A stretch of 64,000 nt of DNA from Candolleomyces eurysporus. Its lineage: Eukaryota; Basidiomycota; Agaricomycetes; Agaricales; Psathyrellaceae. The stretch is taken from contig JANBPK010001211.1 of the NCBI GenBank assembly GCA_027579435.1, forward strand, positions 1 through 64,000. Reading direction: 5' to 3'. This document shows, in pieces, positions 3,618 to 58,526 of the stretch; the stretch's first letter is position 1; every line of letters begins with the position of its first letter. A model generated the notes under the pieces. It was not told where the DNA came from, ran no database searches, and saw nothing but the letters and a program-made list of their open reading frames with translations. The position numbers were made by a program, and so were the translations under genes.

Positions 3618-5510
3618 ACGTTCGTCTAGGTGGGGACTGCTATCAACTATCATATATCATGCATCAGTGTGGGATAGTTTTTTTTGGGCGCTGAGATACC
3701 AGAGAGAAGAGTTTAGCGCTATTTTTTGGGGAGTAGCACGCAATGTGGTGGTGATTGGTTATCGGTGATGGCCAGGCGCTTGGGATAAGCATTTGAATGA
3801 GAATGAGGTGAGGCAGGCAGAGTGGCGTATTGAATTAGACAGGTTACGATAAACTGGGATAACTAGGACTGCCCGATAGCGATCACTTACGCACCCAGAG
3901 ATTGGGTTCTCCCAAAAATAACCAGCGGAAGAAAGGTTGTTTGACTTGGGTCATACCCAAAGCAGAGTAGGAGTATTTACCTTCTGTTCCCGGTTCCTTG
4001 AATGCCCTCGCTAACCGCGAGAATAAGACAACCCGAGCCCGTGTATTCTACGTTCACCAATGTTCCATTAATCCTCAAGTCAGACAGTCGACAACATCGA
4101 TGTAGAGCTTGAGATACATAATTTCCAGGAGAGCTTTGACTTTTATTATTAGAATACGATTAGAAACTCATTTATCTCGAGTGAACTTGGCCCGTAACCC
4201 ATGGGCGTCAAATTGAACAGCTTCCAATGTGACTCAAGGCTGTGGACACGAGCATTCGTCGACACATCCTTGTCAACAGCTTCCCTCCTTCTCACTCTAC
4301 AGCTTCCCTCAGACCGCTTTCTCGTCCGTCTGCGACCTGGAAAACATTCAACATGGCCACCCCACTTAGAAGAACGCCTCTCAGACGTTTATCGACCTTC
4401 CTTCGTCCCAGGAAAACTACTGCTAGCAAAGCAGAGACGGGGGATGAACGATCTAGCTCTACACCAGTGCCAGTTGCCACACATATTGTACCGAAGGGGC
4501 TCTCATCGTTCTGGAGACGCAAAATACGAAAGCGAGACTCTCAGCAGGTCGCGTCGCTCCCCACAGAAGAACGGGGTACGGAGGCCTCTCTGCATAAACC
4601 CAAGGAAGACCTTTCATTGAGTGAAAGTAAGCGCGCACAGCAAGGCAATAGCCTGAGTAACGACTGACACAGCGAGACAGTGGGTTCTCCAGGATTTTGT
4701 GGTGGACGATTTACCAATGGACAAGGAGAAGAGCTTAACGCCAGAGAAACCCCAAAGGACGTTCCGCCGAGCCTGACCGTTGCAGCTGCTACAGCCACAA
4801 CAGCGACCTCAATCTTTCCCAATGCGCAAGATTTCAGCATAGAGCGCTTCACCACTATTCAAGCGACGAATGTGGTCGTCAATGCTACCTCAACTGCAGT
4901 TGCAGAGGCTCGCTGCAGTGCTAGCGACCTTGAAAAAGGTATGTCGACGCAATATGATTGAATAACTCGCTGACAATTTGCTTCGGAGTCATAGATCGGA
5001 GCGTCCTGGTAGTACTTCAAGAAAATTATGCTGATAAGCGCATGCCAATGCGACCGTTGACGGTATCCATTTCAAGGGTGAACACACCCTTGCAACGTGC
5101 CACAGCCAGCGCACTCCGGTTAGATTTAAAAATAGAATTAGATACAAGCGTCTTGAGACAGTACAACGACTTAACATTAGTGCTCAGATCACCNTTTTTT
5201 TTTTTTTTCCTCGGTTGTACACCGCTGAGTATGAATGAACATCAAGATCGGACCACGGATCAGACGATGACGTTGCGATTTTGATCACCCCCTGATCCCT
5301 CGTGTGTCCCTCATCTATGTCCTCGATCAGTGTACTCCTATTTACTCCTTGGCAATCTTCTCTTTGATCAGGCTTTTCCAAGTATATGTCGTTTCTGCAC
5401 CCTGTAAGGTTGGCCATCAAGTAAGTCACGGAGGTAGGTGGATAGGATAATGGCACAAGGTCCCAATGAGGAACGGCCGGTTTTCACTTCTGCTCGGCCA
5501 GAGGAGACTG
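3618..5510 (+). repeat. Repeat segment 2, carries gene copy A
   Basis: From about 3760 onward this segment is collinear with 5527-7310: the same 5' flank, the same three exons and two introns, and the same 3' flank (TGTCCCTCAT, TTTACTCCTTGGCAAT, ATATGTCGTTTCTG, GGAACGGCCGGTTT). The offset is about 1.8 kb, so this is a direct tandem duplication. Its first 140 nt match only segment 1. Confidence 0.75.
4353..5284 (+). CDS. Unrecognised three-exon gene, tandem copy A
   Basis: Proposed exons are 4353-4626, 4681-4938 and 4995-5284, joined by 54- and 56-nt GT-AG introns (gtaagc...gacag, gtatgt...catag). The protein is about 273 residues. I do not recognise it. The N-terminus is very basic (MATPLRRTPLRRLSTFLRPRK). 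The middle contains an IFPNAQDFSIERFTTIQATN segment, which vaguely recalls N-terminal regions of mushroom NACHT/NLR proteins; this is only an impression. The third exon ends in LDTSVLRQ...LTLVLRS and then runs into a 14-nt T tract next to an N, so the C-terminus is unreliable. Exons, introns and splice sites are all conserved in copy B, the best evidence that the model is real. The start is the first ATG shared by both copies. Confidence 0.5.
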
Positions 5511-5988
5511 CGCCAGTGATTGTTTATCGATGATGGCCAGGCGCTTGATAAGCATTGAATCAACGAACGGGAATGGGGTGAGGCAGAGTGGCGTATTGAA
5601 TCAGACAGGTTATGGTAAACTGGAATGACTAGGGACTGCCCGATAGCGATGGCTTGCACACCCAAACACTGGGTTCTCAAATTACCAGTGGAAGAAAGAT
5701 TGTTTGACTCGGGTTATACCCAAAGTAGAGTATGAGTGTTTATCTTCTGTTCCTGGCTCCTTGAATGCCCCCGCTAACCACGAGAATGATACATCAGTAG
5801 ACAACCCAAGTCCGTATATTTTACGTTCTTCGACGTTCCATTAATCCTCAAGTCAGACGGTCGACAATATCGATGTAGAGCTTGAGATACATAATGCTAA
5901 GGAGAACTTTGACTTTTATTATTAGGATACGATTAGAAACTCATTTATCTCGAGTGAGCTTGGCCCGTAGCCCATGGGCGTCAAATTG

Positions 5989-6112
5989 AACAGCTTCCAA
6001 TGTGACTCAAGGCTGTGGACACGAGCATTTGTCGACACGCCCTTTTCAACAGCTTCCAACGTGACTCAAGGCTGTGGACATGAGCATTCGTCGACACGCC
6101 CTTGTCAACAGC
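5989..6112 (+). repeat. 59-bp direct repeat in the leader of copy B
   Basis: AACAGCTTCC starts at 5989, 6048 and 6107, giving two near-identical 59-bp units plus the start of a third. The unit carries GTGACTCAAGGCTGTGGAC and GTCGACACGCCCTT. Copy A has a single unit. The length is not a multiple of three and the repeat lies upstream of the chosen ATG, which supports an untranslated leader. Confidence 0.8.
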
Positions 6113-6184
6113 TTCCCTCCTTCTCATTCTGCAGCTCCCCTCACCCCGCTTTTTCGTCCGTCTGCGACCTGAAAAACATTCAAC

Positions 6185-7170
6185 ATGGCCACCCCACTAA
6201 GGAGAACGCCTCTCAGACGTTTATCAACCTTCCTTCGTCCCAGGAAAGCTACTGCTGGCGAAGCAGAGACGGGAGATGAGCGGTCTGGCTCTACAGCAGT
6301 GCCAGTTGCCACCAATATTGTGCCGAAGGGGGTCTCATCGTTCTGGAGACGCAAAATACGAAGGCGAGACTCTCAGCAGGTCGCACTGGTCGCGTCGCCC
6401 CCCACAGAAGAACGGGGTACGGAGGCCTCTCTGCACGAACCCAGGGAAGAGCTTTCATCGAGTGAAAGTAAGCGCGCACAGCAAGGCAATAGCCTGAGTA
6501 ACGACTGACACAGCGAGACAGTGGGTTCTCCAGGATTTTGTGGTGGACCATTTACCAATGGACAAGGCGAAGAGCTTAGCGCCAGAGAAACTCCAAAGGA
6601 CGTTCCGCCGAGCCTGACCGTCGCAGCTGCTACAGCCACAACAGCGACCTCAATCTTTCCCAATGCGCAAGATTTCAGCATAGAGCGCTTCACCACTATT
6701 CAAGCGACGAATGTGATCGTCAATGCTACCTCAACTGCAGTTGCAGAGGCTCGCTGCAGTGCTAGCGACCTTGAAAAAGGTATATGGACGCAATATGATT
6801 GAATAAGTCACTGACAATTTGCTTCGGAACCATAGATCGGAGCGTCCTGGTACTTCAAGAAAATTATGGTGATAAGCGCATGCCAATGCGACCGTTGACG
6901 CTATCCATTTCAAGGGTGAACACACCCTTGCAACGTGCCACAGCTAGCGCACTTCGGTTAGATTTAAAAATAGAATTAGATACAAGCGTCTTGAGACAGC
7001 GTGTTGACTTAACATTAGCGCTCAGATCACCTTTTTTTTTTTTGACCTCGGCTGTGCTCGCGCCTAAAGGCCTTGAAGGTCCCACGATTAACTATCAATT
7101 AGGATCACACCTGATCTCGTGTGTCCCTCATCGATCAATTTATATTTACTCCTTGGCAATTTATCTTTGA
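6185..7170 (+). CDS. Unrecognised three-exon gene, tandem copy B
   Basis: Proposed exons are 6185-6467, 6522-6779 and 6836-7170, giving about 291 residues. The organisation matches copy A exactly (54- and 56-nt introns, same phases). Relative to copy A, exon 1 gains a 9-nt insertion (adding residues after DSQQVA) and several substitutions (KTTASK to KATAGE; ATH to ATN). Exon 2 is nearly identical. Exon 3 loses one of two tandem valines and then, after a 12-nt T tract, enters a different C-terminus ending in SIYIYSLAIYL. In the part of exon 1 I compared I count roughly eight replacement and five silent differences, closer to relaxed constraint than strong purifying selection. The function is unknown. 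Confidence 0.5.
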
Positions 7171-7839
7171 CCAGGCTTTTCCTATTATATGTCGTTTCTG
7201 GATCCTGTAAGGCTGGCATCGAGTAATAAGTCATGGAGGTAGGTGGGGAGGATAATAGCACAAGGTCCCAATAAGGAACGGCCGGTTTCCACTCCTACTC
7301 GGCCGACTCCGATGGAACGCCAGTTCGTATATTGCTGGGTCGAGGCCGCTGCATCTGTCAGTCTCTCATCCATGGCATGGTTCTTCTTTCCTTGCGTCGG
7401 TCTTGAGGAATGGAATAAATCATTTTAACTTGAAGGATGTTTGCACCTGGAAGTGCTTCACAAGCCTCGCAGAGATATTGTGTTTGCAGCTCCATGCTGG
7501 TACCACACGAGCTCTGAGGCCTCATCAAGGCACCAACATGCATGGATATCTAACTCTGTCGCTATTGTAAATCCGGTAAGTAGTTGCCGCTTGATAGAGA
7601 AAGCAAGTGTCACACCTCTGACTCTAAAACACCTCCAGGCTGCTGAAGTGCCATTTTGAGCACAAAACCTGCGGGCGCGGCCGCCTACACTAGTACACTT
7701 TTCAGTTGGCTCGTATTCATATCCATAATTCATTCAAGAATTTAAATTCCTCTGTTACCTTGTGTCGTTTGATCTTTTGCCCTCTCTTGTTTTCATTGTA
7801 GGGAGGCCACTAGTCACTGGTGACAACACATTGACTGAC

Positions 7840-12971: not shown

Positions 12972-15900
12972 TTACGAGCCCGTCATATCCCACTCGGACC
13001 AAACCGCCGCAGGCCTATGTACAGTCCCAAGATCTGGGTGCTTTTGCTTTTGCTGCTGTTGCTGCTGTTGTTGGTGGTGGTGCTGGTGGTGCCCATTCGC
13101 GTCCCGAGAGTTCGGACTGAACTCCTCCGTCTTCTCAAGCTCCACAATCTTCTCACTCAGTCCTCCATTGTCGTTAATCTTGCCCCTCATCACGAGAATG
13201 ATGTTATCGACGTCAGGATTCATCTCGGGCTCGGACCACAGGAGACGGATATCGCCACCTTCGATGACTTGGAGCAGGCGCCCGGTGGGTACGTGTCGCA
13301 CTTCGATGAACCGTTGGGAGATGAGGAGCAGGAGGTCCTTGCGGTGCGCGCAGGAGACGGCTTTGGTTTCCCATTTGACGAAACCAAAGTTGCGCGTTGG
13401 GAGCCCTTTGCCGTTCATGTAGCAGCCGATGTCTGAATAAAACAATCATGTCNAAAAAAAACTTGACGCAACGACGGGAAGAGGAAAAGTGACAGACCTT
13501 CGAAGATAACCATAAACTCATCGGTAGTGCTACATTTGAGCAGGCCGATGCATTTGGCATTTTCGATTTTCGACTTGAGCAAGGTCGGAGATGGGTTGGA
13601 CGTCGTTTCCTGGATGAGTGGGAGGGGGGGGCGTCGCTGTACTCGCCAAGCTGCATTTCTATTAGCTGCATTGTTCCATTTATTGTTTCAGGCAAGTACT
13701 CACTCTCCAGGGTTACCGGATACCACACCGCCTCGCACACAGATATTGACGTTCCTCGATAGAGCCACAACGTCAAAAGCTTCCTTTGGTACGAAGCCCG
13801 GCTTAAGAAGGTGTCAGACTAATCCTGTACTGGAGCAATACAAGTAGCTTACCTGGCCGTACTGTCGGAACGAAGACGGTGTAGACGACGGAGTCCTCTG
13901 CAAAGAATGCGCAATCGCCTCAATGGTATGGATATTCACGGAACTGCTGAGGCGTTTCTTCGAACCATATACCACTGCACGTAAGAACCCAAGTCAGCAT
14001 TTCCCTGTAGCCATTGTAAGAGATTGGAGGATTGGAGTACTCACGTAGAACACGCTCGTTCAACACAACATGTTTCACAAAAAGGACATTCTGATCAGAG
14101 CCCGTAATCCGCTCTTTCGACGCCTCGAGCACCTTGGCTTCCGCCCGATCAGTAGCAAACCGTGCTACTAGCTCCAAGGAATACGAAACGACCTTGCCGT
14201 CTGAGTGGATGATGAATTTGTTGAAGACTTTGTCGCCGACGGCTTGCAAGGCAGCTAGATAGACAGGATTCTGATACGTGAACACCCTCTTAAGCTCTAT
14301 TTCAACGAGAACCGTCAGAGATCGCTGCTTTGCAGAAAGAAAAGGGGGTGTATTGTACCTTTGGGCTTGCCGTGAGGGGCAACGTAGATGCCATTTGCAC
14401 ATCCTATTGCTAGGAATCGGTGACCACTACTCGTCGCTGCGTTGTGCATCAGTTAACTGTTGCGAGCAATGAATCACAAATCACAAAAAGTGGACGTACC
14501 AAAGGGAACAGCACTCGTCACCCTTCCGGTGGGTCTCGAGGAGGGACTAACCACGGTTTCTCTCGGGATTTTGAAATACCCATCATCCCATTCCTTTTGC
14601 GCTAGCCACTGCACATGTCCAATCAGCACACCTCCTTGAAAAATCTAATAGAAGAAAACCAGTAACTCACCTCGTTACTTTCTTGCCGCACTTTATGCAC
14701 TCCAAGAGTATCAACGAAGTAAGAGTGCCACTTGCTCCGCTGGGCCTCGCTCGTCACACAGAGGGTGTACGCCTTCATGACCAGAGGTGAAGAATGGTAT
14801 AGCGTGAAAGGGTACAGAGGGATGCTCTGAGATCGGAAGGTGTCTAGGATGCCACCGTCCTCGATCTTTTCTCGGCGAGTCTCAGGAGGGCCGGTAAAGG
14901 ATGCTAGGCGAACGAAAGAGAGTGGAAGTGGCTGTCAAGAATAAGGATGAGATGCCAGTGCCGAGAAAACATTTAAAATCGAAGCGTACGCGAGATACAA
15001 GAACTTTCTTAACAACCCCGTGGGCGAACTTGGTATCGCGTGTTAACAGGACTAGAGAGCGGGTAGATGAAATTTAAATTTAGGTGCATGCCGATCGAGT
15101 ATGGTTTACTCACAATAGTTGTCCAAGAGCGTTGCATTCACTTCCACCCATTTCTCAGCGGCGAATCCTTCCGCCTTGATCTTTCGCCAAACAGGGCCCA
15201 TGTTGACCAAATGCCGCTCCTTATCATAAAGGTCCATATCCTGGGCGCATTGAATCAGTAGGTCGCTCGATTCGCATTCGTGGCCAGGAGATCCTCACCG
15301 TGATTTCCCCCTTCTGGAACACAAGGTTCTCGCAAAGGTCCCAGAACTTGACCTTCTGCTCAGCGGCTTCGATACCGGGTTGTGTCGCTTTGATGCAGTC
15401 ACTGACAATAGTCAGGATAATCGGTAACGTCTCCACATCCGGATGGTCGTGATCTTTGTCCGTCCGTTTGAGTATCTGCTCGATCAGCATGTTCATCCGT
15501 ACAAGTCGGGTGAGAGGTCGGGAAAGGAAGATCTTGAGGTCGCGTTTCTTGATGCGAGGCTGACCTGACACGGACTCGAGGAATTTAGCATAGGAAGGGT
15601 TGCTCTGAAGTTCCTTTTGGTGGAAGGACTCCGCAACGGGGTAGTGCTTGATGTATTTCTCATAAGCTTCCCGGAATTCAGGCTTGAGGGATGCTATACG
15701 GGTGAGTGTGTCAGCGAGTGCAAGATGGAGTATGTAAAATTAACTCGCTTGTGAGGATAATGTCGGCCACTGAATGGATGAGTGGATGATCGTCCCTTTG
15801 CCTCTCAAACAACGCCTTCAACATTTTTTGGTGGTGCACCAAAATATCATGCAAATTGCCGAACACGTTATGGACGAAGACCGACACGTTCGCATCGGGA

Positions 15901-17518
15901 ATAACAGCGGGTTGCGCTTCCATGATGCCTTTTACGAACACCTCTTCCATCGTTTCGAGATCGGTGACGTAGTCCCGCTCGGCTTTCAGTAGCTCGAATA
16001 TTAGACCTTGACGCTTGATTTCGGATTCTTCGAGAGCTTTCAATGCTCCTTCAGGCACGAGACGGTGCCAATCTTGGTCTTGTTCTGGAAGCTCGCCTTG
16101 CTGGAATCGCCGGATGTTCTCGTCCATGTCGAGTCTGCGGATATAATGAATAGTTGCTCAAAGAAAGTCCTAGAGGAAAAAAAAGTGGCTACGCACGAGA
16201 GGTTAGACAATTCCTTCGCGATACCCTCCGTTTCCGCGTCCAGTTGGAAGTCCTAGTACACCGAATGAGTGATCCAGAGTCTTAGAAGCTCTCGGAACAA
16301 GAACCATACCTCTGCAGAAGGGCTCATAAACCCATCATCACCAAAATCATCTTTGTAATAGCTCGAAGCCGAACTTTGAAACGAAGCCACCGATGGCATC
16401 TGCTGCAACTTGATGAGGTTAGGACTGAACGCAAACTCTCCTTTCCCTCTTGCTGAAGATGGCCTTCTATTGTTGGTCCCACTTGCAGTTGTCGGAGTTG
16501 ATACAGTACTGCTAGCAGGCGTACTTGTAACACTACTACTGCTGGGGGTACCTGTGCTATTGGGTGTAGTCGCAGAAGGAAGGCTGTGGTTGTTGTGGGT
16601 GTTAGCGCTATGATTGGTACTAGTATTAGCCACCGCACTACCACCCGTTCCATTCCTGTGGCCATAGTGATCATAACCTCCGTGCCCATGTTGCCCGATT
16701 CTCGAGCCGGAAGATAGAGTGGCCGTTGCGGACGTCGCTCTTCCCAACGTCGGTTGGGGCGGTGGCCCGGATACAGGAGGCATCGAAGGCAAAGGGGGGA
16801 TTTCGGGTTGCGGGAACGCCATTGTAGGAGTTGTGAATGTGGATACCGTGTGTGCGCGGACGGAGGGGCGCTGCTCGACGGTCGATTTAGCGCGAGGACG
16901 AGCGCCTCCGCCATATCCCGGAATGTTCAGATCGCTTGCGCCTCCCAGACCTGCTACTCCCCCTCCTTCCGGCTCTACTGCTGTTGCTGGCGATATTATT
17001 GGGGAAAGCCCCATTGCGGAGGCTACATGCGGGGGATAGATCCATGGATTGTTGAAGTATTCGTAGGACGGTGGAGATCCAGCCCCGCTTGCAACCCCTC
17101 CTAATGGTGCTGAGACGTACGATGGGCTCGTATTCGACGACGATCTCGAGCTCGAAGGCCCAGAATTTATGTCTGAGTCGTTGTTTGTCGGGAAAGGCCG
17201 CAGGTCTGGAGAACGGCCATATCTATCGTTCGAGCTGGTCCCTCGACTGCCTTGGAAGCTATCAAGACGTGGGGGTTGCAAAGGCGGACGGGTCGATGAT
17301 GAAGAATCGGACACTGAGGATGATGCTGAAGCCAATTCGTTTAAGAGTGCCTGTGGTCGTGGTGGTACTGGTGGTGGAGGGGGTGATGGATGGCGGAAAT
17401 CATCATCAAATGGGTTGGTGCTGCGAGGTCGCGACTGCGCTCTCGGCCTCGTCGTCGTCGTGAACGGTGGTCCAGGAGGGAGCGGTTTGTTGGGATCACC
17501 ATTGTGGGAGGCGTACAT
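12972..17518 (-). CDS. ROM2: Rho1 guanine-nucleotide exchange factor, Rom1/Rom2 type (DH-PH-CNH)
   Basis: Fourteen exons give about 1255 residues. It catalyses GDP/GTP exchange on Rho1, feeding the cell-wall integrity pathway at the plasma membrane. Order of parts: a disordered Ser/Pro-rich N-terminus (exon 1, 17518-16310, about 400 residues, many PPPP runs); a DH domain from IKRQGLIFELLKAERDYVTD through IKKRDLKIFLSRPLTRLVRM (exons 3-4); a PH-like region (YFLLTRDTKFAHGVV to SKWHSYFVDTLG); a CNH domain (ATSSGHRFLAIGCANGIYV, GKVVSYSLELVARF, CKCST-like KCSTTDEFMVIFEDIGCYMN, GLPTRNFGFVKWETKAVS). The C-terminus has a His/Gln run (H2QH3Q8). The intron after exon 3 (from 15748) appears to be GC-AG (acaa|gcgagt): using it gives ILTTSLKPEFREAY, which fits the DH fold. 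All other introns are GT-AG and 46-66 nt. An N at 13453 lies inside an intron. Confidence 0.93.
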
Positions 17519-30607: not shown

Positions 30608-32596
30608 ATGTCCTCTGAGAAGCTCCAGGTTTCCGAGAAAACAGCTGCCCTCGAGACCGACTCGACGACCGAAAAAGGTCAGGTCTCCCTCAAGCATGGC
30701 GATAATTCTTCGTCTTCAGACGTAGAACTCGCCGGCCCAACTTTCGACGAGGCCAGAACCGGTCGGCTGCTTCGCAAGATGGACTGGAACATCGTTCCGT
30801 TCCTCGCACTTCTCTACCTGTATGTTATTTTTATCCCTCTTCTCCACATCCTTTAGCGGTTACCGACGACGCTTGTTATTTTAGACTCTCCTTCTTGGAC
30901 CGCACCAATATTGGAAATGCTCGCCTCGCCAACTTGGAGCGGGACCTCGGCATGGAAGGTCTCGATTACAACGTGCGGAATCTCTCTCTCGTTCTACAGG
31001 TGGATGTTCTGACAGCCTCGTAGATTGCATTGGCAGTCTTCTTCCCTTGGTATGTTGCTGCCGAAATTCCAAGCAACATCATGATGAAGAGGACGAGCCC
31101 CTCGCTCTGGTTGTGCATCATCATGATTGGCTGGGGTCTTTGTGAGTCTTCCGAACACTACGCCGACGTCCAATCACTGACTGCTTCTTTTCTTCTCCAG
31201 GCATGACTCTCATGGGTATTGTAAAGGACTTCACCGGTCTGTTGATCGCTCGTATGGCATTGGGACTCTGCGAAGGCGGTCTCTTCCCTGGTGTAACATG
31301 GTACATCACCCTCTGGTATCGACGACATGAGTGCGGTCTGCGCATGGCCATCTTCTTCTCTGCTGCGACCCTCGCAGGAGCGTTCGGAGGTTTGCTTGCT
31401 CGAGGTATCGCCGAGATGAACGGTGTCGGTGGCCGACCAGGTTGGGCGTGGATCTTCATCCTCGAAGGTCTCTTCACCATTCTCGTCGCCTTCTTTGCTA
31501 AGTGGCTCATCAACGACAACCCCGAGACGTAAGTCGTCGAACATGTTAGTTGGTTACATTCTCTGATCGCCTTCCTACAGAGCGAAGTTCTTGACCACCG
31601 AGGAGCGGACAGAAGTCATCGCTCGTCTCAAGCTTGACCGAAGTGCATTGGCCGACGAGTATCATATCAAGTATCTCAAACACGCCTTGACCGATTGGAA
31701 GATTTGGGTTCACATGCTTATCACCATTGGTAGGTCATTGCATCCGTGTGTAAAGCTACCAACCTCACGCTTTTTTAGGTATCTACACTCCACTCTACTC
31801 GATTTCCCTGTTCTTGCCGACTATTGTGAGAAACATGGGCTATACCAACGAGACGGCCCAGTTGATGAGTGTTCCACCGTATGTTATGGGGTGCATCGCA
31901 ACGATTTCTGGGGGTTGGGCAGCTGATCGGGCGAAGAAGCGAGGCGTCTACATGATGTTCTTCTGTCTCGTCGCAATCCTCGGGTTTGTTATGTTGATTG
32001 CGACGGACACGCCCGCCGTTCAATACGTCGGCACCTTTTTGGCTGTCAGTGGGTGAGTGGTTATCGGCCGCACCATCGTCGACGCTTGGCTGATCTCGAA
32101 ACTCTACAGAATCTACCCTAATGTTCCCATGGGTGTTGCATGGAACGGGAACAATATCGGAGGTGCTACAAAGCGAGCCGTTGGAATCGCTATGCATGTC
32201 GGTGAGTCGTTTGTGCCCAAGTTCACTTGTCCGAGATTTTTCCTGACTTCATTTCGTCAGGATTTGGAAATCTTGGAGGTGTCATCTCTGGATTCGCTTA
32301 TCGCAGTGTCGACGCCCCCAGATATTACTCCGGTCACGGCCTTCTAATTGCCACTGTTTCTATGAGCTTCTGCTTGTGTTTGTTCATGCACCTCTATCTC
32401 GTCCGGGAAAATCGTCGCAGGGATGAGGAGATGAGGGCCAAGGGTCTCACACTCGAAGACTACACCAGCGAGATGAAAGAAGCTGAGCGTGAGCGGGGCG
32501 ATTATGCAACGGTAAGCCGACGCCCTCTTACTCAAGTTGATCGACCATTCAGCTCATCATTATTTCGTTTTCCAGTTCTTCCGCTACACTGAGTAG
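30608..32596 (+). CDS. MFS permease, anion:cation symporter (Dal5/Tna1-like) family
   Basis: About 495 residues, seven or more exons. Plasma-membrane transporter predicted to have 12 helices; the family moves organic anions such as allantoate, nicotinate, biotin or pantothenate. Landmarks: hydrophilic N-tail of about 60 residues; FLDRTNIGNARLANLERDLG after helix 1 (the family's signature loop); VAAEIPSNIMMKRTSPSLWL; ARMALGLCEGGLFPGVTWYI; YRRHECGLRMAIFFSA; GWAWIFILEGLFTILVA; LINDNPETAKFLTTEER loop; GGWAADRAKKRGVYMM; GNNIGGATKRAVGIAM; SGFAYRSVDAPRYYSGHG; and a charged C-tail ending FFRYTE. Substrate cannot be read from sequence. It is not of the 14-helix fungal siderophore-importer (ARN/SIT) type. 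It lies upstream of and co-oriented with the NIS synthetases. Confidence 0.9.
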
Positions 32597-33357: not shown

Positions 33358-35584
33358 ATGCTTTCTGCTTCAGGGCTGAGCTCTGGCGATCGTGCTGCTT
33401 TTGCAACGTCTGTTCGCCTTCTTTCTTGCCTCGTAACAGAGTCTCTGGTAGACGCTCTGTTCTATCCTTTGACCGCAAATGGATTGGCAGGATTTGCTGC
33501 AATCCAATTGACGGGTTTAACGGAGGTTGCTGTGCGAAGTGGAAATAATACTCTGGCGATCGTACCTCTTCTTCATGCACCCATATTTCGAAGGCCATCT
33601 CCCCCATCTGGTTCATTTGCTCCGATAATAGGCCTTTTGGATCCATTAGACATGGCTCCTCTAATCTTGGTATTTAGCAGCTCGGGCAGCGAAATTCCGG
33701 TGGTATGCAACCAGGATGCTCATAATGACATGATCTTAATGATTCTCTATAGAATCCGCTGGCGTCGTCTATTCTCCATCGTTTGGCCGACGACGGCTGG
33801 GACGGAATCAATGGCCTGGCTCTACGAAGCACCTTTGATCCCGTAGCCATTTGGCGCAGATATGCTTCCGCTATTGGTGTGGAAAGCAGGTTGCAAGAAG
33901 ACATCGAGGGTGAATTTGTCAGTTCAGTGAAATGGCAAAGTTCGTACACCCCCTTCCCTTCATTATATCGCCGTTTTTACATCTACTTTCAGAGTACTCT
34001 TTCGAAAACCCACTTATTGCCCCTACCTGGTCAACTCCAAGCATCGGGTGGGAGCAATCGATTGTCGAAGGCCATCCTACACACCCGGTAATTTACCGTG
34101 CAAGTTGAGTGGGAGGCAGGGCTGACTCTCGACTTTAGATGTACAAAACAAGACGCTTCCTACCACCTATACCAGATTTCGCTCCTGGTAGCTACGATCT
34201 TTACCACCCGAAGCTGCGCTTCATTGCGATGCCGCGAGATTCTCTCAAGATCACATACAACTTCGAAGAGCTTCTCGACCCTCTGTTGCAGGCTGCATCA
34301 AAGACAGCCGGTCGACAAATGGACGTTCCGTCTAACTGCGTCGTCGTTCCTGTGCATGAATTACAACTGTATCATCTTCGGGAGAAATTTCCTGAAGTGT
34401 ATGTTTTCCCCGCCGAATACCACCTTCCGCTGCTAGCCCAGCAGAGCATCAGGTGAGTTCCCGTACACTGCTCTGCCACGGTTTGGATAGCTCACCAGTT
34501 GAAATAGGTCTGTTGTCGTTCCAGATGCCTACAAAGGCCTCCACCTAAAGCTTGGTGTTGGCATTAAGCTGACATCGGCGGTCAGAACGATCTCACCAGA
34601 ATCTGCCTATCTAGGACCACGCTTTTCTGCGCAAGTCGTTCCCGTCCTTACGATGGATCGTAACATCGTGACGGTGGCGCGTGAACTCGCAAGTGTCGTC
34701 CATCGTAATCCCGACGGAGAAATTGCGAAGCATTGCGCCGCGTTGATACGAGAATATCACGAGGGTCCCGGCGAAGACTGTGGCGAACGCCATATCGTCT
34801 GCACGTCTCTTGTGGAAAGAGGTCATGCCGGCGCCCGAGATGAGCTACCTTTGGTGACACGGGTGTTTGAACTCGACACCGAAGATAAAAGGGCTGCTTG
34901 GCTCGAGAAGTATTTAATTTTCAAAGCATTTTAACGTTCTTATAAGCTAATGCGTTCTCCAGGTTCGCGGATGTCTTTTTCCGAGCATTCCTTCCGCCAG
35001 TAATTCAAAATGGAGTTGCGTTTGAATGCCACCCACAAAACTGCGTTGCTCGATTTGACAGGGTCACGAAAGAACTGAAAGGTTTTATCATCCGCGATTT
35101 TGGAGGTATTCGCGTTCATCCACCAACGTTGAAAGCCACGACTGGTGTCGATCTTGACTTCGTCGAAGGCCATTCCATTATTGCGCCGGACCTGGACGAT
35201 GTTTACACACGGTTGTACCATACCGTGTTCCACAACCATTTCCAACGGCTCATTAGGGTACTTGAATTGCACTACAACGGAAGAGGGTGGGCTATTGTGA
35301 GAGAGAAGCTCTCTCGTGCCATTCCGAGAGAGCATCCTCTCTATGATGCCTGGCTGAGCCCACAGAAGGCCACTCTGCCGGGCAAATGCTTCATGAGAAT
35401 GAGGATGTCAGGAATGTATCGCTTCGTAAGTGAACTTGGAATTGTCATCCGTCCCCTAGTTTGCTTATCAGAACGCGCACAGCATCTCCATGGGCCTTTC
35501 CCAAATTTAATCCATTACCAAGGGGAGGCCTCAGAAATTGCCGAGTACTGTAGGAACGCTGGAATGGTGACGTCCAAGTTGTAG
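33358..35584 (+). CDS. NIS siderophore synthetase-like protein A (IucA/IucC family)
   Basis: About 640 residues in seven exons. IucA/IucC enzymes adenylate a carboxylate (often citrate) with ATP and join it to an amine or alcohol to build hydroxamate/carboxylate siderophores without an NRPS. Motifs present: nucleotide/citrate loop SIVEGHPTHP-MYKTRR (the canonical GHPxHPxxK), with an intron exactly after HPTHP; PVHELQ in place of PVHPWQ; LGVGIKLTSAVRTISPES; LIREYHEGP; LVERGHAG; GVAFECHPQN (canonical EAHxQN); ARFDRVTKELKGFIIRDFGG; and NHFQRLIRVLELHYNG. The last intron is resolved by homology to copy B (MYRF joined to HLHGPFPNLIHYQG). No frameshift or stop. Such genes are known in bacteria and sporadically in fungi, so old horizontal transfer is plausible, but the dense introns show long residence. 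Confidence 0.9.
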
Positions 35585-36528
35585 GGGAGTGTTTACTACG
35601 TAGTGGACTCCGAACTTTAGGCTCGGGCAGAATCGCCTACATTGCTCTATACTTTCTATCATTAATCTGGGCTGCCCAACTACGTCCCATCTGCTCAATC
35701 GATTGTGATAATCGATGGAAACGTGAACTAACTTGTCCCGTGTCTAAACATGGAGCTTCCACTTCGAAAGCGCGTACACGCGCACCCGAGCACGTTTGAC
35801 TGCGCACTTTGGCAATGCAAAAGTCGCCACATCCCGGTCTAGCTTATCAATTACTTTTGGCTTCTCGCAGCACATGGACCTCAGTACGGACGGACAGAAA
35901 AAGATTCTACGCGTTGTTCTATTAAGTCACCCACTTGGTGTGGCTAGAGTCTGGACAGATCTGCCTGACATATGCCACCAGTCGATGACCACTTGGCGAT
36001 GACACGTGGGCTACGATTAGATTAGATCCGCGTACCCGGCGTTTATCAGATAACGATTTCAGCCGAAACCCCTGTATAATCGACATCTCCGTCTTGGTAC
36101 GATCTCTCACCGACTTTATACCGTTCTCCTTTTCTAAATCCTCGAGAAATATATTTCTTGGACGGTTTTTCATCCCTTCTACAAGGTAATTTTGCGGCGT
36201 ACCATTCATTCGTTCTTTAAGCCAAGTCATACTCAAAATAGCCCTTTTTCAGGACTATTCTAAGTTCTACATTCCATTCGAACATCGCACTCGACAGTGG
36301 CACTACGCTCATCATAATATTTTGAGTTCTGTAGCGTTAAGGTTCCGTTTCCTTCTACACAAACAAATAGGTGTCAACTAATAATGTTCACCCTCAAGAA
36401 AGCTAGAACGGAAGTCGATTGTGCCTAGGTCTCGGAATTTTACCCAGCCAACTGTATGTCTTTCCCAAATCCTCTCTCCTGATTAAAGCGACTCACAGTC
36501 CCAAAATCTACCATCAGCCCCTTCTTCC
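35585..36528. other. Intergenic between the two NIS synthetases
   Basis: 944 nt. No gene. It contains a palindromic GATA-type site (separate entry), CACGTGGG at 36003-36010 (E-box core) and T-rich sequence near 36330-36360. Confidence 0.5.
36043..36053. promoter_or_regulatory. Candidate iron-responsive GATA-factor site, TTATCAGATAA
   Basis: An 11-nt near-palindrome that reads ATCWGATAA on both strands. ATCWGATAA is the core reported for fungal GATA-type iron repressors (SreA, Sre1, Urbs1). It lies about 476 nt upstream of NIS synthetase B and downstream of A. Under equal base frequencies this 11-mer is expected at well below one per kilobase, but function is unproven. Confidence 0.5.
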
Positions 36529-38686
36529 ATGCCATCAGCGAACCCCTCCTTCACCCTCAAGGATCGTGCAGCCTTTGCTGTAGCATCCCGGTTATTATCA
36601 TGTCTGGTCACCGAGCAAGTTCTCCTGGCATTCTACACCCCTTCACCTGAGTTGGGAAAAACAGCCGGAGTAATGGCTGTTCTATCACCGACGATCGTTC
36701 CGAGTCCTGAACAAATAATCAGAGCAGACGATTTGTTTGCTTTGGTTCTACTTCACCATCCCCCGGTCTTTCTGGATGGTGCCACGACGAGCACTGGAAG
36801 GCGAATCGGTCTAGTCGATCCTTTGGACATGTTGCCGGAAATTTACGAACTGGAACGGGGGACCAATGCAAACTCGGTATGTATCTCGTTTCTACCATAG
36901 TCCATTTATTCAATGTTATTAGGGGCTCCACGCAGAAAGTATTCTCCGATGCTTCCGGGGACCTGCTTGGGACTTCCAGGGATTTTCCCTGAGAAGGGCC
37001 GGAGACCCAGTCGCCCTGTGGCATCAGTATACTAGGAGAATCACGATGGAGAAGGACATGAAGGAGGCCATCGCAAAGGAACTGGCGAGTTCTTGGCACT
37101 ACCAGTGTGAGTCGTTTGGAGCGCGATCATACATGTTTTTCTGACCGACTATTCAGACATCTCGTATAAAAACCCAACCCGCTGCCCTTCTCTCCAATCA
37201 CCACCTATTGAATGGGAACAGAGTCTCGTCGCCGGTCATCCTACCCATCCTGTTTGTCTTTAACCTCCGCCGCCTTCTTCATCTCTAATATCACCTTTAG
37301 ATGCACCGGGCTCGATTAGTTCCTTCTCAGTTGAACGACTACGACTGGTATCACCCTCTGATCCGCTTCGCCCAAGTTCCCCGAGATTGTGTTGACCTGA
37401 AGGGCGCTTTCCCGGAAATTAGCCAGTTCCTTGTTGAAGGGGCATCCGCTAATACCGGCGTAGCTTTGGACCACGGCAAGTTTACCTACGTGCCAGTCCA
37501 TGAGCTCCAGATACCCAGCATTTCGAAACTTTTTCCATCTGTCGTGGTTTTACCTGCGGACATCAGCCTTCGGGCCTTTGCCCAATCAAGCATCAGGTAA
37601 CTTTGTCGTAGAACTCACCGAACCTATTCTAACACTATTTTTAGGACAGTCACCGTTGCCGAGTTACCAGCTCATGCCTTGAAATTGGCCATTGGCGTGA
37701 AGATCTCGTCATCACTGCGCACCATCTCGCATTTCACTGCAGACTTTGGCCCTCGGTTTTCTCGGGATGTTATCCCACGATTGAACGTTGACCGCAGCAT
37801 CTTGTTTGTGGAGACTGAACCGCACAGCGCTGTATACCGTTGCGAAGACCCTGAGGCCCAGAAACACTTCACAGCGGTAATCAGGCAGGAGTACCAGCCC
37901 CTCCCGCACGAGACTGTCATCGTCTGCGCAGCCCTCTTAGAGACTGACCACAGCAACACCAAACCGGGTGTCTCTGCTATCGAGCATGCCTTCGGGCTGG
38001 ATACGGAATCGAAGCGAATTCAATTTTTGGACAGGTGCGTCCCTTATGAATAGGATAATAATCATGTTTTCTGAGAGATCTGTTTAGATACATTGAGCTG
38101 TCGACGAAGGCGTTCATCCCTGCCTTGGTCACGAACGGCGTCGCGTTCGAAGCTCACGCACAGAACGTGCTGGTAAGGGTTCACCGGACTACAGGAGAGC
38201 TCCTGGGTTTCGTGATCCGGGATCTAGGCGGACTTCGCATTCATCCTCCTACTCTGCGCCATTCGATAGGAGTTAACTTCCAGTTCCTGCCGAAACACTG
38301 CGTTGCCACGGAGACTCTCGAGGAGATTTACCCCAAATTCTACCATACCTACATCCACAACCATGTTCAAAGGTTGATTCGCCTTTTGGACCTCCACTAC
38401 AACGGCATTGGATGGGAAATCCTGAGGCGACACATGAATGCTGCGGTTCCGACTGATCACCCTCTTCGCAAGATTTGGTTGTCAACGGAGAGCAGGTTGG
38501 TTCAGTCCAAGTGTTTGATGCGTATGCGGATGAAGGATTCCTACCGTGATGTAAGTCCGAGCTGTGTCAAGTCATGCTATGACAACGCTGACTCCTTCAT
38601 TTCTGTAGATGGTCTATAATCCATATCCAAATATGATCCAATTCCGCCCAGAAACGATAGACGGGAGGAAGCAATCTTCCTTGTAA
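36529..38686 (+). CDS. NIS siderophore synthetase-like protein B (IucA/IucC family)
   Basis: About 625 residues, eight exons; a clear paralogue of A in the same orientation. Motifs: SLVAGHPTHP-MHRARL with the intron at the same place as in A, PVHELQ, LAIGVKISSSLRTIS, VIRQEYQPL, GVAFEAHAQNVLVRVHR (a closer match to EAHxQN than A), GELLGFVIRDLGGLRIHPPT, NHVQRLIRLLDLHYNGIGW and RLVQSKCLMRMRMKDSYRD, then an intron and MVYNPYPNMIQFRPE to the stop. The terminal exon model was used to correct copy A. Intron positions after the catalytic motif, after QSSIR, after FLDR and after SYRD match those of A, so the duplication post-dates them. The proteins differ at many sites, so the two may use different substrates. 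Start: ATG at 36529; the ADP-forming core is intact. Confidence 0.9.
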
Positions 38687-38944: not shown

Positions 38945-40674
38945 ATGTCCAAAGAGGCTGAAATCGGGACTCTCATTGTCGTAGTCCTAAAGGCTCGCAA
39001 TCTCAACGACAAGCACACCTTTCGCAAGCAGGATGCGTACGCCAAAGTTGCACTGAATGGTGAGCGCTTTCGTCTGATGCTGTTACGATTTCGACTGACT
39101 TGGTTATAGGAACGGAGAAGAAGACAAAGGTCGATATCAAAGGTGGCCAACATCCTGTTTGGGACGATGAAGTTCGGTTCCCTGTCCTTAAGACGCCCTC
39201 TGGCAAACTAAGGAAGTTGGAGATATCTTGCTGGTCCAAAGAGCCTCGAGACGACGATCTACTCGGCAAGGCGACTCTGGACATCTCAGATACCATTAGG
39301 ACAGGCGAATTCGACGGTGCGTACGAGCTGCCTTTTATTGTTGGCGAAATAGATTGTTGAAAGAGCCAATAGACTGGGTACCGCTCTCAATCGATGACAA
39401 TATTCGGGGTGATGTTTACCTTGAAATGACCTATTACTCTCATGGGCCACCACCGCCCTCTGCTGCTCCGAGTCCGAGTCCCTCTCCCGCCTTGAATAAC
39501 ATCTTGAGTGTTCCCCAGAGCAACCTGATGCGAAGGCCGTCCAAACTGTCGCAGTCGGAGCGACTCTCGAGGCCGGCTGTGAACACGAACACTGGTCAAA
39601 GGCCGCCCCAACATGGCAATAGCTATGGGACGCCCCAATCACCCTACGGACATTCAGCTGCTTCATCCAAGCCTAACAAGAATGCTACACTGCCGCCTGT
39701 TCCTGAGGCACAGAGTCCCCAAGGCGGCGCTCAACCTCCCCCTGCGTTTCTCCGTCCTGGGGCAACCCCATCACCGAGACCGCAAGCATCCCCACCCCGC
39801 CCGGGATATCAATCACTCTCAACCTCACCTNCCCCCCCAACAAAACCCTTACCTAAATCCGGCAGCGAACCCTGCGTACAACTCTTCGTACAACCGACCT
39901 ACATCCACACCGCCAAACCCGAACGCCCAACCTAACCCTTATTTCATTTCGACCACACCGGCTCCAAGCGCTAACGCTTACGCTTCACCAGTAAACCAAT
40001 ACCAACCACCGGCCGTTCCTGTTTCTTATACTCCAGTTCCTCACCACACGCCTGCACCTCCACCTTCCACCACGCCCGTTCCTGTTTCTTATACTCCGGT
40101 TCCTCACCACACGCCCGCACCTCCACCTTCCACCACACCTCTTCCAGTGACCTCTCCTACTGGCCCTCCTCCTCTGTGGGCAGGGCCGCCGGTCGATCCA
40201 TCACCTGGAGGATTCTCCTTCCCGGTACCAACTGTTCTTTCGGGTGCCCCGGAGACGGAACCATACCAACCGCCATGGGCGCAAGGGCCCCCTCCAAACA
40301 GGGTTGAGTCCCCCTATGACCACCAGCCATACGGCCACCATCGAAGAGTTTCTGATCCACGAGCGGATCCTAACCTCCATGCCCGCTATCAGACTCCTTT
40401 GCCTTTGCCCCCGGGTGAACGGAACCAACGTCCAGCAGAGTCATCCCCTCCCCCTCCCCGGAGGGACGCCTCTCCAGCTAGCTACAGTCCGCCTTCGCAT
40501 TCGCCCCGGCCTGCACCAACATCACCCCCTAAACCCTCGAGGCAACATTCAGGGCCTGATTATAAGAGGTTGCAGGAGTTGGTGGGTGCAGAGGACAATG
40601 CGAAGCGACGTTGGGAGCAGGAGCAGAAGGATTTGGAGCTCGCGATGCAGCTGGATAGGGAATTGAATCTGTAA
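38945..40674 (+). CDS. C2-domain, proline-rich protein (Inn1/Fic1-like)
   Basis: About 530 residues, three exons. An N-terminal C2 domain (GTLIVVVLKARNLNDKHTF, RKQDAYAKVALNGTEKKTK, GGQHPVWDDEVRFPV, DDLLGKATLDI, DDWVPLSIDDNIRGDVYLEM) is followed by about 370 disordered residues rich in PxxP motifs. A short coiled end (DNAKRRWEQEQKDLELAMQ) closes it. The architecture matches yeast Inn1 and fission-yeast Fic1, which bind SH3 proteins (Cyk3, Hof1/Cdc15) at the division site; assignment rests on layout rather than close identity. The frame changes at 39831: removing the single N there restores continuity (SPPPQQNPY). A 21-residue unit (VPVSYTPVPHHTPAPPPSTTP-like) occurs twice around residues 365-405. 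Start: first ATG, 5 residues before the C2 strand. Confidence 0.8.
40018..40143 (+). repeat. 63-bp direct repeat inside the C2/proline-rich gene
   Basis: Two in-frame units of 63 bp (21 residues) that differ at three bases by eye (CCAGTT/CCGGTT, GCCTGC/GCCCGC and a terminal variant). They add PxxP and PPP motifs. Confidence 0.9.
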
Positions 40675-40872: not shown

Positions 40873-41935
40873 TTATGAAACTTGGGACATTGAAACGTTA
40901 ACGTTCGAAGCACGATGCTGGTGAAGCTCTCCTCTGTCTATCCCCTTGGACTGGCGGAGGTCGAAGAAGTATGTCAGTACGTAGAACGTGAATAAAAATG
41001 CGATGGTCCATTCGAGGACGGCTGTCGAAAGAGTCGGGTCGGTTAGTTTACAGGTATTGCAAGCCGAGTTACAGCAAAAGGGACGCACCTCCAACGTTGG
41101 TGGCATAGTACAGTGCTACCGCGAAAGCGATGGCTAGAACAATAAGAACCGAGGCAATGACGGCTTTCACGAGATACGCAACGCGTAGCTCTCGAGCAAA
41201 TACAAAGTCTTTGCTGATCCACCGGTACTAGCGGAGCCGTCAGTTCACCTGAGGTTGCATGCGATACCAAGAGAAAAGCAGGGTCTTACCTCGATGATCG
41301 TGAAGATAGCACTGAATGTTACGCCGACAATGAAAATCAGCAGGAAGAGTCGGTGGGGAGTCGTATACCGCGCCGTGTCGAAAACGGCGAGGAGAATCAA
41401 GCCGGCGCCGCCAATTGCTGCACCTATCACCGCAAGTGTGCTCAAGACCCTTTCTCGGGTTCGCATGTGGGGCATAAGCCTACAGAATAAGAAAAGAGGG
41501 ACAAAAATTGTCAGTACATCTCGTCTCGTCTGCAAAAATAGTAGTCGTGTGACCCCCCGGACGGAGCCAAACTCACCTGCCCGAATGCCTTAAATATCGC
41601 TCGATAACCAAGCAAAGGAAGAAGCCGACGCCTGTCACGGAGGACCCAGCGACAAAGAGAGGTTTGAGCATGTCAGCTCCGATGTCCGAGATGAATGCGA
41701 TGCGACCCTCTTGGGAGATGTATCTTGGTTGGCCCTGGACAAGCCAGACGATCATCATGGCCCATAGCGTGCCTGTATATTCCGCCGGCAGGAAGTTGAA
41801 AATAAGAAAACACCATCAGCTTCAGCCGAAAATGAGGTAGAGGAGGAGGGGGTACTCACCGAACCAAACAAAAGCGGTAACGATTGGTATCCATACGTAG
41901 GACCAATGTCTATATCTCAACGGAACCTGGAACAT
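40873..41935 (-). CDS. Frag1/DRAM/Sfk1-family polytopic membrane protein
   Basis: About 260 residues in five exons. Start MFQVPLRYRHWSYVWIPIV, with the motif 'RHW' typical before helix 1 of the family. Further blocks: LVQGQPRYISQEGRIAFISD (extracellular loop with the conserved P-x-IS), GADMLKPLFVAGSSVTGVGF, RLMPHMRTRERVLSTLAVI, GAGLILLAVFDTARYTTPHR, IFIVGVTFSAIFTIIEYR, and a C-terminal hydrophobic pair before DLRQSKGIDRGEL. Six helices are predicted. Yeast Sfk1 acts in plasma-membrane lipid asymmetry and PI4-kinase signalling, and DRAM proteins in autophagy; which role applies here cannot be told. Introns are 50-60 nt. Confidence 0.88.
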
Positions 41936-43574: not shown

Positions 43575-44521
43575 TTAAACACAAGTCTCAACCATGCCCG
43601 GAGGGAGAGGACCTGCGCTGGTGCAAGGGCCATTACTATGACAAGTAGAAAGCTTCTTGAAAATCTGCAAACAAAGATTCGTCGACATTCACTCCGGGTA
43701 TCACGAAAATATGACGAAAGAAGCACACACCTGGACATAAACCTCGGAAGACTGCCCACCAGTGACCGCCCACTTGCCGTCAATTACGACAACGGGCACG
43801 CCGGTGATACCTTTCGCTCTCGCCGCATTAGACATGTCCTCTACTTCCTTTGCAAGTTCATCAGACTCGAGGAATGTGAGCGCATCTTCCCGGGACATGA
43901 CTCCACATTTTGCTGCGATGTCCGCGAGCACATCCGGCTCCGCCACGTCCTGCCCTTCCTCCATCGAGGCGGTGAAGATGGCCATGATAAGCGGCGTCTG
44001 CAGGCTCTGTCCACCAAGCTTCCCTGCCTTCAGCGCTAGACGGTGCGCCTTTGTGGTTTGGCGTATCGTGCCATGCAGAGAGCTACATCATCGGTCAGCA
44101 ACCGACGCGAATGTGCAGAGGTGAAGCGAAACGACGACGCACAGAGGTCTACCCTTCTCCTCCGCCCACTTGGAGACATTGGCCTGTAGCGCGGAGAAGC
44201 GTTCCTTTCCGACGAACTTGCTCAAAAAGACCTCCCGGTCTCGTTTGTTCGGGCAGTTCTCGGGAAGAATGTTGGTGTTGATAAGTCGGAATGGGATGTG
44301 TTCGAGTTCAAAGTTGAGTGGGAGATCGAGAGTATCCTTGCAGTAGTTTATCGCGTCCAAGAGTTCGTGCTGCCCAATGCAGCAACTGACACAGACCTGG
44401 GCGTCACGGAGGGGGTTAACAGGGTTGTTCGGGTCACCGAGATAGCTAGCCGAGGGCGACTCACAAAGTCGGTGATCACGGTGAGCTTGACGGTCTTGAG
44501 AGGGGTGTCTGGGGGAGGCAT
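43575..44521 (-). CDS. DsbA/FrnE-like thioredoxin-fold oxidoreductase
   Basis: About 225 residues, four or more exons. FrnE-type proteins are cytosolic thioredoxin-fold enzymes with a CxxC site and a cis-proline. Here the first exon (MPPPDTPLKTVKLTVITDF) runs into CVSCCIGQHELLDAI: the active-site CPWC/CYIG of relatives becomes CVSC-CIG. Further motifs are FELEHIPFRLINTNILP, RFSALQANVSKWAEEKG, GTIRQTTKAHRLALKAGK, SREDALTFLESDELAKEVED, and ITGVPVVVIDGKWAVTGGQ with the cis-Pro loop. The C-terminus is short and Cys-containing. Start: ATG at 44521 directly before the beta-strand, though an in-frame ATG 33 nt upstream (44554) is also possible. Partner and substrate unknown. Confidence 0.82.
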
Positions 44522-56538: not shown

Positions 56539-58526
56539 ATGACACTCTTTCTTCCCCTCAACCCCAGCACTCCCTTGCCACAGTCCCCACCCTTTTTGAA
56601 CCCACCGACGGACCGCAATGCGGGGATGACAAGGGTCGTTCAGGCACTTCTCAAGGCGAAGCGAATTGTTGTCATCTGCGGTGCGTGGCTGCCTCATGGC
56701 TTTATCTACCCCGCATCCTCATTCAATCTTATCTCTTCTTTCAGGCGCTGGAATTTCTGTGCAAGCTGGAATACCAGACTTTCGCTCAGCAGACGGCCTA
56801 TTCAAAACTTTGAAGCGAGACAACCCAAGAGAGTCGCTGAACTCGGGAAAAGACCTCTTCGATGCATCCGTATTCAACGTGAGGCTTTAACTGCGCTCTG
56901 GGGTGAAAAAAGTCGTTAATCACATTAACCCGCTAGTCTGAGCACACGACGACCCTCTTCTGCCAGATGATGGCCCAACTGTCGGACATGTCACAGAATG
57001 CAGAACCTACATCCTTCCATCAACTCCTGCGAGCCCTCGACGACAGGGGACGGTTATTGCGTGTATACACGCAAAACATCGATGCTATCGAACAGAAATG
57101 CGGTCTTTCATTCGGTGTTCCAGACCCCGAAAGCAGGAAGTCCAGGGGCCGAGGGAAGACGAAAGCTACCAGCCGGTCGGACGAAGAAACCACTGATCAA
57201 TCTATGGACGGGCAGCCTGAATCCTCAACATCCAGGCTTCCTACACCTATCCCGGAAACTCCTCGTTGCATCCCCCTTCACGGCACATTGCAGTCAATGT
57301 ATTGCCAAATATGCAGCAACTCGTTCCCTCTCTCGGACTACCTTCCTTCCCTCAACGCTGGCCTTCCCCCACATTGCCCAGAATGTGAAAGCATCGAGAG
57401 GACACGGGCCTTGATTGGTAAGCGTCCCAGGGCAATAGGCAAACTGCGTCCGAGTGTCGTTTTGTATAACGAGGCCCACAACAACGGAGAGGGCGTGGGT
57501 GATGTCGTACAGAAAGACCTGATTGGTTCGTCGAAGGGGAAAGGAAGGAGTGGTGCTGACTTTCTGTTGGTGGTTGGAACAAGTTTAAGGATTCCTGGTA
57601 CGAAAAGGATGGTGCGTGAATTCGCCAAGGCCGTCAAGTCGCGGGGAACTGGGTCGGCGCCTTCGGGGAAGGAAGAAGCAGCGGGGGGTTCAGGTTCGAC
57701 TACGCCGAATGATTCTTCCAGACGATCACCCAATATCGATGAAGATCCTCCGCCTCCTGCCGCTCCCCCTCCTCTGAAAGCAGTTTATCTTAATCTCGAC
57801 TTCCCTGTCCCAACACGCGAGTGGGAGGGCGTGTTTGATGCATGGGTGCAGGGGGACGCGCAGGTTTTTGCCGATACATTGAGGGACGAGATAAAGAAAG
57901 AAGCAAAGGCCAAGCAACTGGCGTCGGAAAGGAAGAGAAGGAGAGAAGAGGAAGCTGCCGCCGCCGCCACTGCAGCGAAGGGGGAAGAAGAAGACATCGA
58001 TGTTGAGATGTTGCCTCCCCCTCCACTACCGACACCACAGTCAACCCCGAAGAAACGGAATACGACAGCTAGCGCAGCACCCTCCAAACGACAGAAGAAA
58101 GGAGGTAAAGGCCATCAGCCTGCAGTTTGCGAATCGGAGGCCGTGGAACGCTTGACTATCAGGTTACCTGCCTCAACCCCAAGCGACAAACCCTTTCCTC
58201 CACAACTGCCACTACGTACCCCGCCCCGCCGTTCATCATCTTCATACAGCCAAGAGTTTCACGGTTATCTCTCTTTGCCAACTCCAGCGACCTCTCCGTC
58301 GTCGCAGACACGCTGGCAGCATCCCAGTAGAACGCCCCCACCTCAATTGTCGCCGTACTCGTTTGATCCTGAACTGCCTTGGTCCAGTCGGGGGTCGTAC
58401 CGCCCCTCCATTTCTTCATTCAACATTCTGACATCCTCGATACGGTCTACTCTGGAAGATCATGAGCGAGATTGCTTCCCTTCCTCTAATCTGGTCGAGG
58501 TTGGGCACTATGGGTTCCCAGGATAA
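56539..58526 (+). CDS. Sirtuin, Hst3/Hst4-like NAD-dependent histone deacetylase
   Basis: About 620 residues, three exons (56539-56682; about 56745-56878; 56943-58526). Hst3/4 remove acetyl from histone H3 lysine 56 in the nucleus. Motifs: GAGISVQAGIPDFRSADGLF, the intron-split region (DASVFN joined to HTTTLFCQMMAQLSDMSQ), TPFHQ-like TSFHQLLRALDDRGRLLRVY, TQNIDAIEQKCGL, PRCIPLHGTL (catalytic His), zinc CQIC...CPEC, LRPSVVLYNE, ADFLLVVGTSLRIPGTKRMV, KAVYLNLDFPVPTREW. A roughly 55-residue acidic/Ser insert separates the NID loop from the catalytic His. The tail (200 residues) is charged, with an REEEAAAAATAAKGEEED run and PPPRRSSSSYS, probably disordered. Confidence 0.92.

Follow-up and report, generated by a model that had tools for sequence, protein, structure and literature searches.

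Can a mushroom make a siderophore without a nonribosomal peptide synthetase (NRPS), and what would it do with two adjacent enzymes for the purpose? The question is raised by the first 64,000 nucleotides (hereafter the window) of contig JANBPK010001211.1 from the basidiomycete Candolleomyces eurysporus (assembly GCA_027579435.1), which carry two genes, here called NIS1 and NIS2, for predicted NRPS-independent siderophore (NIS) synthetases of the IucA/IucC type. Most of what is known about NIS synthetases comes from bacteria. The original prediction for this locus proposed that the pair makes a siderophore, or another citrate-like amide, without an NRPS, and that the two paralogues may use different amines; overall, this interpretation is partly supported by the analysis described here.

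The tandem pair is real and intact, as had been claimed. NIS1 lies at 33358-35584 and NIS2 at 36529-38686, both on the forward strand and separated by an intergenic gap of 944 bp. Gene models, built here from splice signals and the mutual alignment of the two copies, give each gene seven exons (NIS1: 33358-33702, 33753-33939, 33993-34087, 34139-34452, 34508-34909, 34963-35425, and 35483-35584; NIS2: 36529-36876, 36923-37106, 37157-37251, 37301-37596, 37645-38034, 38088-38550, and 38609-38686). The encoded proteins of 635 and 617 aa are slightly shorter than the ~640 and ~625 residues first estimated, and both coding sequences are free of N. The NIS2 model is supported by a partial public C. 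eurysporus protein, H1R20_g12449, to which it is 100% identical over 460 residues; no public C. eurysporus counterpart of NIS1 is present among the protein matches listed. Family searches of the 65.85 Mb genome recovered these two genes as the only loci of the family (2/2 candidates in each search). The two proteins are 42% identical (259/611 aligned residues), and all six introns of one gene occur in the other at the same alignment column and in the same phase. Therefore, NIS1 and NIS2 are copies of a single intron-bearing gene that duplicated long ago.

Domains, predicted fold, and conserved residues place both proteins in the NIS synthetase (IucA/IucC) superfamily. Each matches the Pfam models IucA_IucC (E = 5.5e-29 for NIS1 and 8.9e-22 for NIS2) and FhuF (5.1e-13 and 1.3e-13) above the curated cut-offs. 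The motifs named in the original prediction are found in both: GHPTHP, the K/T-rich loop (KLGVGIKLTSAVRT in NIS1 and KLAIGVKISSSLRT in NIS2), an E-x-H-x-Q-N-like motif (FECHPQN and FEAHAQN, respectively), and RDFGG in NIS1 or RDLGG in NIS2. Structural models of orthologs P0002 (73% identical to NIS1) and P0122 (71% identical to NIS2) adopt the NIS synthetase fold. The ATP, citrate, and general-base residues of NIS synthetases are kept in both proteins. On alignment to the achromobactin synthetase AcsD, which differs from the pair in having just ~15% identity to it and which couples citrate to L-serine, Glu469 of NIS1 and Glu459 of NIS2 align with Glu442, and Arg340 and Arg333 align with Arg305, the roles of these two AcsD residues being taken from PMC3323832. 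The loss of catalytic residues that had been named as grounds for rejecting the prediction is thus not seen. Among NIS1-class proteins, 89-96 of 96 retain the positions checked, as do 82-85 of 85 NIS2-class proteins. At 20 further positions, each class is at least 85% conserved but with residues that differ between the NIS1 and NIS2 classes, which would allow, rather than demonstrate, the use of a different amine by each paralogue.

How old is the duplication? Two trees and a comparison of contigs show that NIS1 and NIS2 derive, as judged from sequence relationships, from one duplication early in the Agaricomycetes and have mostly stayed linked since. The first tree, rooted on Mucoromycota by construction, contains 211 sequences (NIS1, NIS2, and those 209 of 222 database proteins that are 520-800 aa long) and resolves 107 NIS1-class (support 0.997) and 100 NIS2-class (0.862) sequences, with one Dacrymycete and three Mucoromycota sequences outside. 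The second, a thinned set of 147 sequences, is rooted by construction on 16 bacterial relatives that do not include the typed bacterial enzymes. It recovers an Agaricomycete clade of 59 sequences (1.0) whose NIS1 and NIS2 sides have supports of 1.0 and 0.943, respectively; the clade lies next to Mucoromycota plus Dacrymycetes, at a joint node with a support of just 0.491. The deeper branches are those of Glomeromycota, Zoopagomycota, rotifers, and Fonticula/Lithocolla, and five further sequences lie at the base. The trees contain NIS synthetase relatives alone, and placement within a family of unrelated function, the other outcome that had been named as refuting the prediction, did not occur. 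The statement that fungal cases are few does not hold: protein searches show that relatives occur widely across Agaricomycetes and Mucoromycota as well as in other fungi, and adjacent pairs have been published (PMC8874372).

Three desert-truffle (Pezizomycetes) proteins, P0269, P0270, and P0274 from Kalaharituber, Tirmania, and Terfezia, nest within Mucoromycota in the second tree, which suggests transfer of NIS genes between fungal phyla. Relatives were also listed from bdelloid rotifers (Adineta P0301 and P0306) and the protists Lithocolla (P0304) and Fonticula (P0312), with P0301, P0304, and P0312 included in the second tree.

Linkage was assessed by taking contigs of equal size as the same contig. 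The table used for this purpose comprises 101 NIS1 and 91 NIS2 rows, corresponding to 96 and 88 names, one of which is a metagenome contig; it leaves out most rows without a name as well as the named P0001, P0063, P0112, P0113, and P0121, and P0080, P0193, and P0199, which fall outside the length range of the tree, were assigned to a class by the better-scoring query. Equal-sized contigs were found for 53 of the 69 names with both classes, compared with 0 of 9115 cross-name pairs, and the copies of the other 16 names are on contigs of unequal size. The contig size of P0112 (Infundibulicybe gibba) equals that of the NIS2 of the same species, so the 53 linked names are, if anything, an undercount. 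Among the 11 linked names with tags entered for both genes, 9 have consecutive locus tags. The linked names span Agaricales, Russulales, and Phallomycetidae. In Amanita phalloides, the annotation merges NIS1 and NIS2, in that order, into a single protein of 1089 aa (P0001), which could reflect either a true gene fusion or a fusion in the gene model. Outside the table, Ramaria rubella P0295 and P0307 are on equal-sized contigs (218276 for each), one on the NIS1 side and the other on the NIS2 side, and are likely a further linked pair.

The intergenic gap contains a candidate iron-control site. At 36043-36053, 476 bp upstream of the NIS2 start codon, the palindrome TTATCAGATAA (not assigned to a strand) matches ATCWGATAA, the consensus of the fungal iron repressor SreA (PMC10500206), which has also been noted in the rfs promoter of Mucor lusitanicus (PMC9226013). 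A motif scan finds ATCWGATAA at this single place in the window. Genome-wide, the palindrome is rare, occurring at 53 places, compared with 16 for the reversed pattern, giving an expectation of 0.00076 per 944 bp, and the 9-mer occurs 841 times, compared with 402 for the reversed pattern. For comparison, two iron-uptake loci were located by family search of the genome. At the FTR1 locus, a site and a palindrome precede the first FTR1 match by 313 and 634 bp, respectively, and on the other side lies an open reading frame (ORF) that, by eye, resembles a multicopper oxidase. The other locus, at G000:C1035:123497-132739, encodes a Lys/Orn N-hydroxylase (SidA-type) together with NRPS condensation domains, and is probably a hydroxamate siderophore locus; its first SidA match is preceded by three sites at distances of 439-568 bp. 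On contig C283, a locus encodes a pair of GATA fingers that flank a Cys-rich motif, the architecture of SreA (PMC10500206). The iron-type GATA site between NIS1 and NIS2 lends support to a siderophore role for the pair. Since the genome also has the SidA-NRPS locus, the fungus does not depend on an NRPS-free route.

The genes around the pair connect it to gene clusters described in Armillaria. Downstream of NIS2 are a C2-domain gene (38945-40674, approximate limits, forward strand; PF00168, E = 1.9e-18 for a hand-joined piece of 175 aa) and an ORF that is part of a Frag1/DRAM/Sfk1 gene (41245-41589, reverse strand; PF10277, E = 1.2e-8, 35.2 bits against a cut-off of 30.3). A gene for a major facilitator superfamily (MFS) transporter lies 5′ of NIS1 (31146-32592, approximate limits, forward strand; PF07690, E = 1.7e-18 for a hand-joined piece of 178 aa). 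The same C2 and Frag1/DRAM/Sfk1 partners adjoin IucA/IucC in Armillaria NIS Cluster 1 (PMC10700112, Table 2), the wider surroundings of which in Physalacriaceae include ABC transporters, a methyltransferase, and a cytochrome P450, with the P450 absent in O. mucida (PMC10700112). Both Armillaria clusters are typed A′ (rhizoferrin-type) in that study, which sets Cluster 2 apart as distinct and in the main text of which the words tandem and paralog do not appear. A. nabsnona P0142 falls in the NIS2 class (53% identical to NIS2 and 41% to NIS1). P0296 and P0299 from A. gallica and A. mellea, equated with the Cluster 2 genes from species and length rather than coordinates, fall on the NIS1 side with a support of 0.942 and a long branch of 1.07. 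P0296 is 42% identical to NIS1 and 34% to NIS2 and has the NIS1-class residue at 17 of the 20 diagnostic positions; the outgroup has the same residue at 7 of these, so about 10 positions argue for descent from NIS1. Because of the shared neighbours and these class assignments, Clusters 1 and 2 look like the separated halves of this ancient pair, and Armillaria appears to retain both classes, unlinked.

Elsewhere in the window, family matches identify pieces of Gig2-like (PF07350, 27018-27843), RhoGEF (15711-16157), DSBA (43701-44087), and SIR2 (56937-58526) genes. A direct repeat of ~1.6 kb at 3916-7300, with a spacing near 1.8 kb and aligned blocks that are 87-96% identical, carries two similar ORFs (MATPLRRTPLRRLSTFLRPRK...).

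Adjacent NIS pairs (PMC8874372) and the synteny of Cluster 1 (PMC10700112) are already in print. In most of the fungi examined in PMC8874372 the IucA/IucC core genes are adjacent, as in Coprinopsis cinerea and Hypholoma sublateritium, with those of Stropharia rugosoannulata on two scaffolds. The C. cinerea (CC1G_07067/07068) and H. sublateritium pairs split into the NIS1 and NIS2 classes, and the C. eurysporus pair adds another member to this group; the portions of PMC8874372 consulted, however, neither date the duplication nor address regulation. The interpretation of the Armillaria clusters as halves of the pair and the palindromic iron-type GATA site between the genes are new here: the literature listings and text passages covered here mention neither how deep the duplication is, nor the correspondence with Armillaria, nor a GATA element for basidiomycete NIS genes.

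We consider it probable, on sequence and by analogy, that the old tandem pair carries out the iron-repressed synthesis of a citrate-diamine, rhizoferrin-like chelator. In this process, each enzyme would use ATP to activate a carboxyl group of citrate by adenylation, as its fold and residues suggest by comparison, and the citryl group would then be handed to an amine, with the conserved glutamate of FE(A/C)HxQN acting as the general base like Glu442 of AcsD. The product would most likely be a rhizoferrin-type carboxylate chelator, citrate-diamine-citrate, or a variant to which both enzymes contribute; the two may act in sequence, on different amines, or separately. Because of the motif and the similar sites at the two other iron-uptake loci, iron probably represses transcription of at least NIS2, with 36043-36053 as the likely site of action of an SRE-type GATA factor. 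Both genes arose from the one early Agaricomycete duplication, with their linkage mostly retained. The Rfs enzymes of Rhizopus delemar and M. lusitanicus belong to the same fungal family, with Mucoromycota beside the pair in the second tree. A single Rfs suffices for rhizoferrin in R. delemar, where it prefers 1,3-diaminopropane and then putrescine (PMC7857480), whereas there are two diverged paralogues here. P0233, labelled R. delemar, is 39% identical to both NIS1 and NIS2; its species label is doubtful given its near identity to a protein of R. stolonifer in the tree.

Several observations weigh against this proposal. The best NCBIfam model is FslA, the scores for which (43-58 bits) fall below the cut-off of 1000. 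The intergenic palindrome was spotted by eye ahead of testing, two 9-mer matches per window are ordinary by number (31 of 100 shuffles reach two), the 1 kb upstream of NIS1 contains no GATAA and hence no ATCWGATAA, and none of 12 ferric-reductase matches is near one of the palindromes listed. Armillaria produces a siderophore reactive to chrome azurol S (CAS) with or without added iron (PMC10700112), and expression of the Armillaria siderophore clusters was not conclusively demonstrated by proteomics (PMC12973365). Further, a C. cinerea laeA cpf1 double deletion, which lacks the NRPS product coprinoferrin, does not fruit (PMC7902601); since this loss occurs despite the NIS pair, the NIS product is no substitute for coprinoferrin there and at best complements it. 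That requirement, together with the lack of an obvious siderophore gene among the flanking MFS, C2, and Frag1/DRAM/Sfk1 genes, would also fit enzymes whose product, a citrate-amine or some other carboxylate amide, is not exported as a siderophore but is, for instance, a ligand for iron or another metal inside the cell or a metabolite with an unrelated role. We regard this alternative as rather unlikely, given the GATA site with its counterparts at two iron-uptake loci and the secretion of rhizoferrin by Mucorales relatives (PMC9226013).

It is less likely still that one synthetase alone works, or that the pair is redundant and its tandem layout has no functional meaning. A single class is found for 46 of 115 names (27 with NIS1 only and 19 with NIS2 only) from lists and annotations that are incomplete, a count that also tells against the proposed pathway. 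Against redundancy stand the retained catalytic positions and the class-specific residues in both classes, the linkage across Agaricales, Russulales, and Phallomycetidae, and the apparent retention of both classes in Armillaria even where they are unlinked. Recent gain from bacteria, where the family is best known, is very improbable: the six introns are common to both copies, the 22 bacterial loci recovered share 20-32% identity with a NIS1 ortholog, and the tree rooted on bacteria places the fungal sequences together with those of Fonticula, Lithocolla, and rotifers.

A bolder extension, which we put forward tentatively, is that the paralogues split the job, one for example forming a mono-citryl amide and the other adding a second, different acyl or amine part. 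The product would then be an iron-regulated carboxylate siderophore distinct from rhizoferrin and overlooked beside the hydroxamates, and the Armillaria clusters would be one pathway at two loci.

If the proposed iron-repressed synthesis by the pair is correct, many mushrooms would hold a second, carboxylate route to iron alongside their hydroxamates, under an iron switch and encoded by a linked enzyme pair retained since early Agaricomycete history. The two published Armillaria clusters would be recast as one split pathway, and the product would be easy to look for, as the genes are adjacent in C. cinerea.
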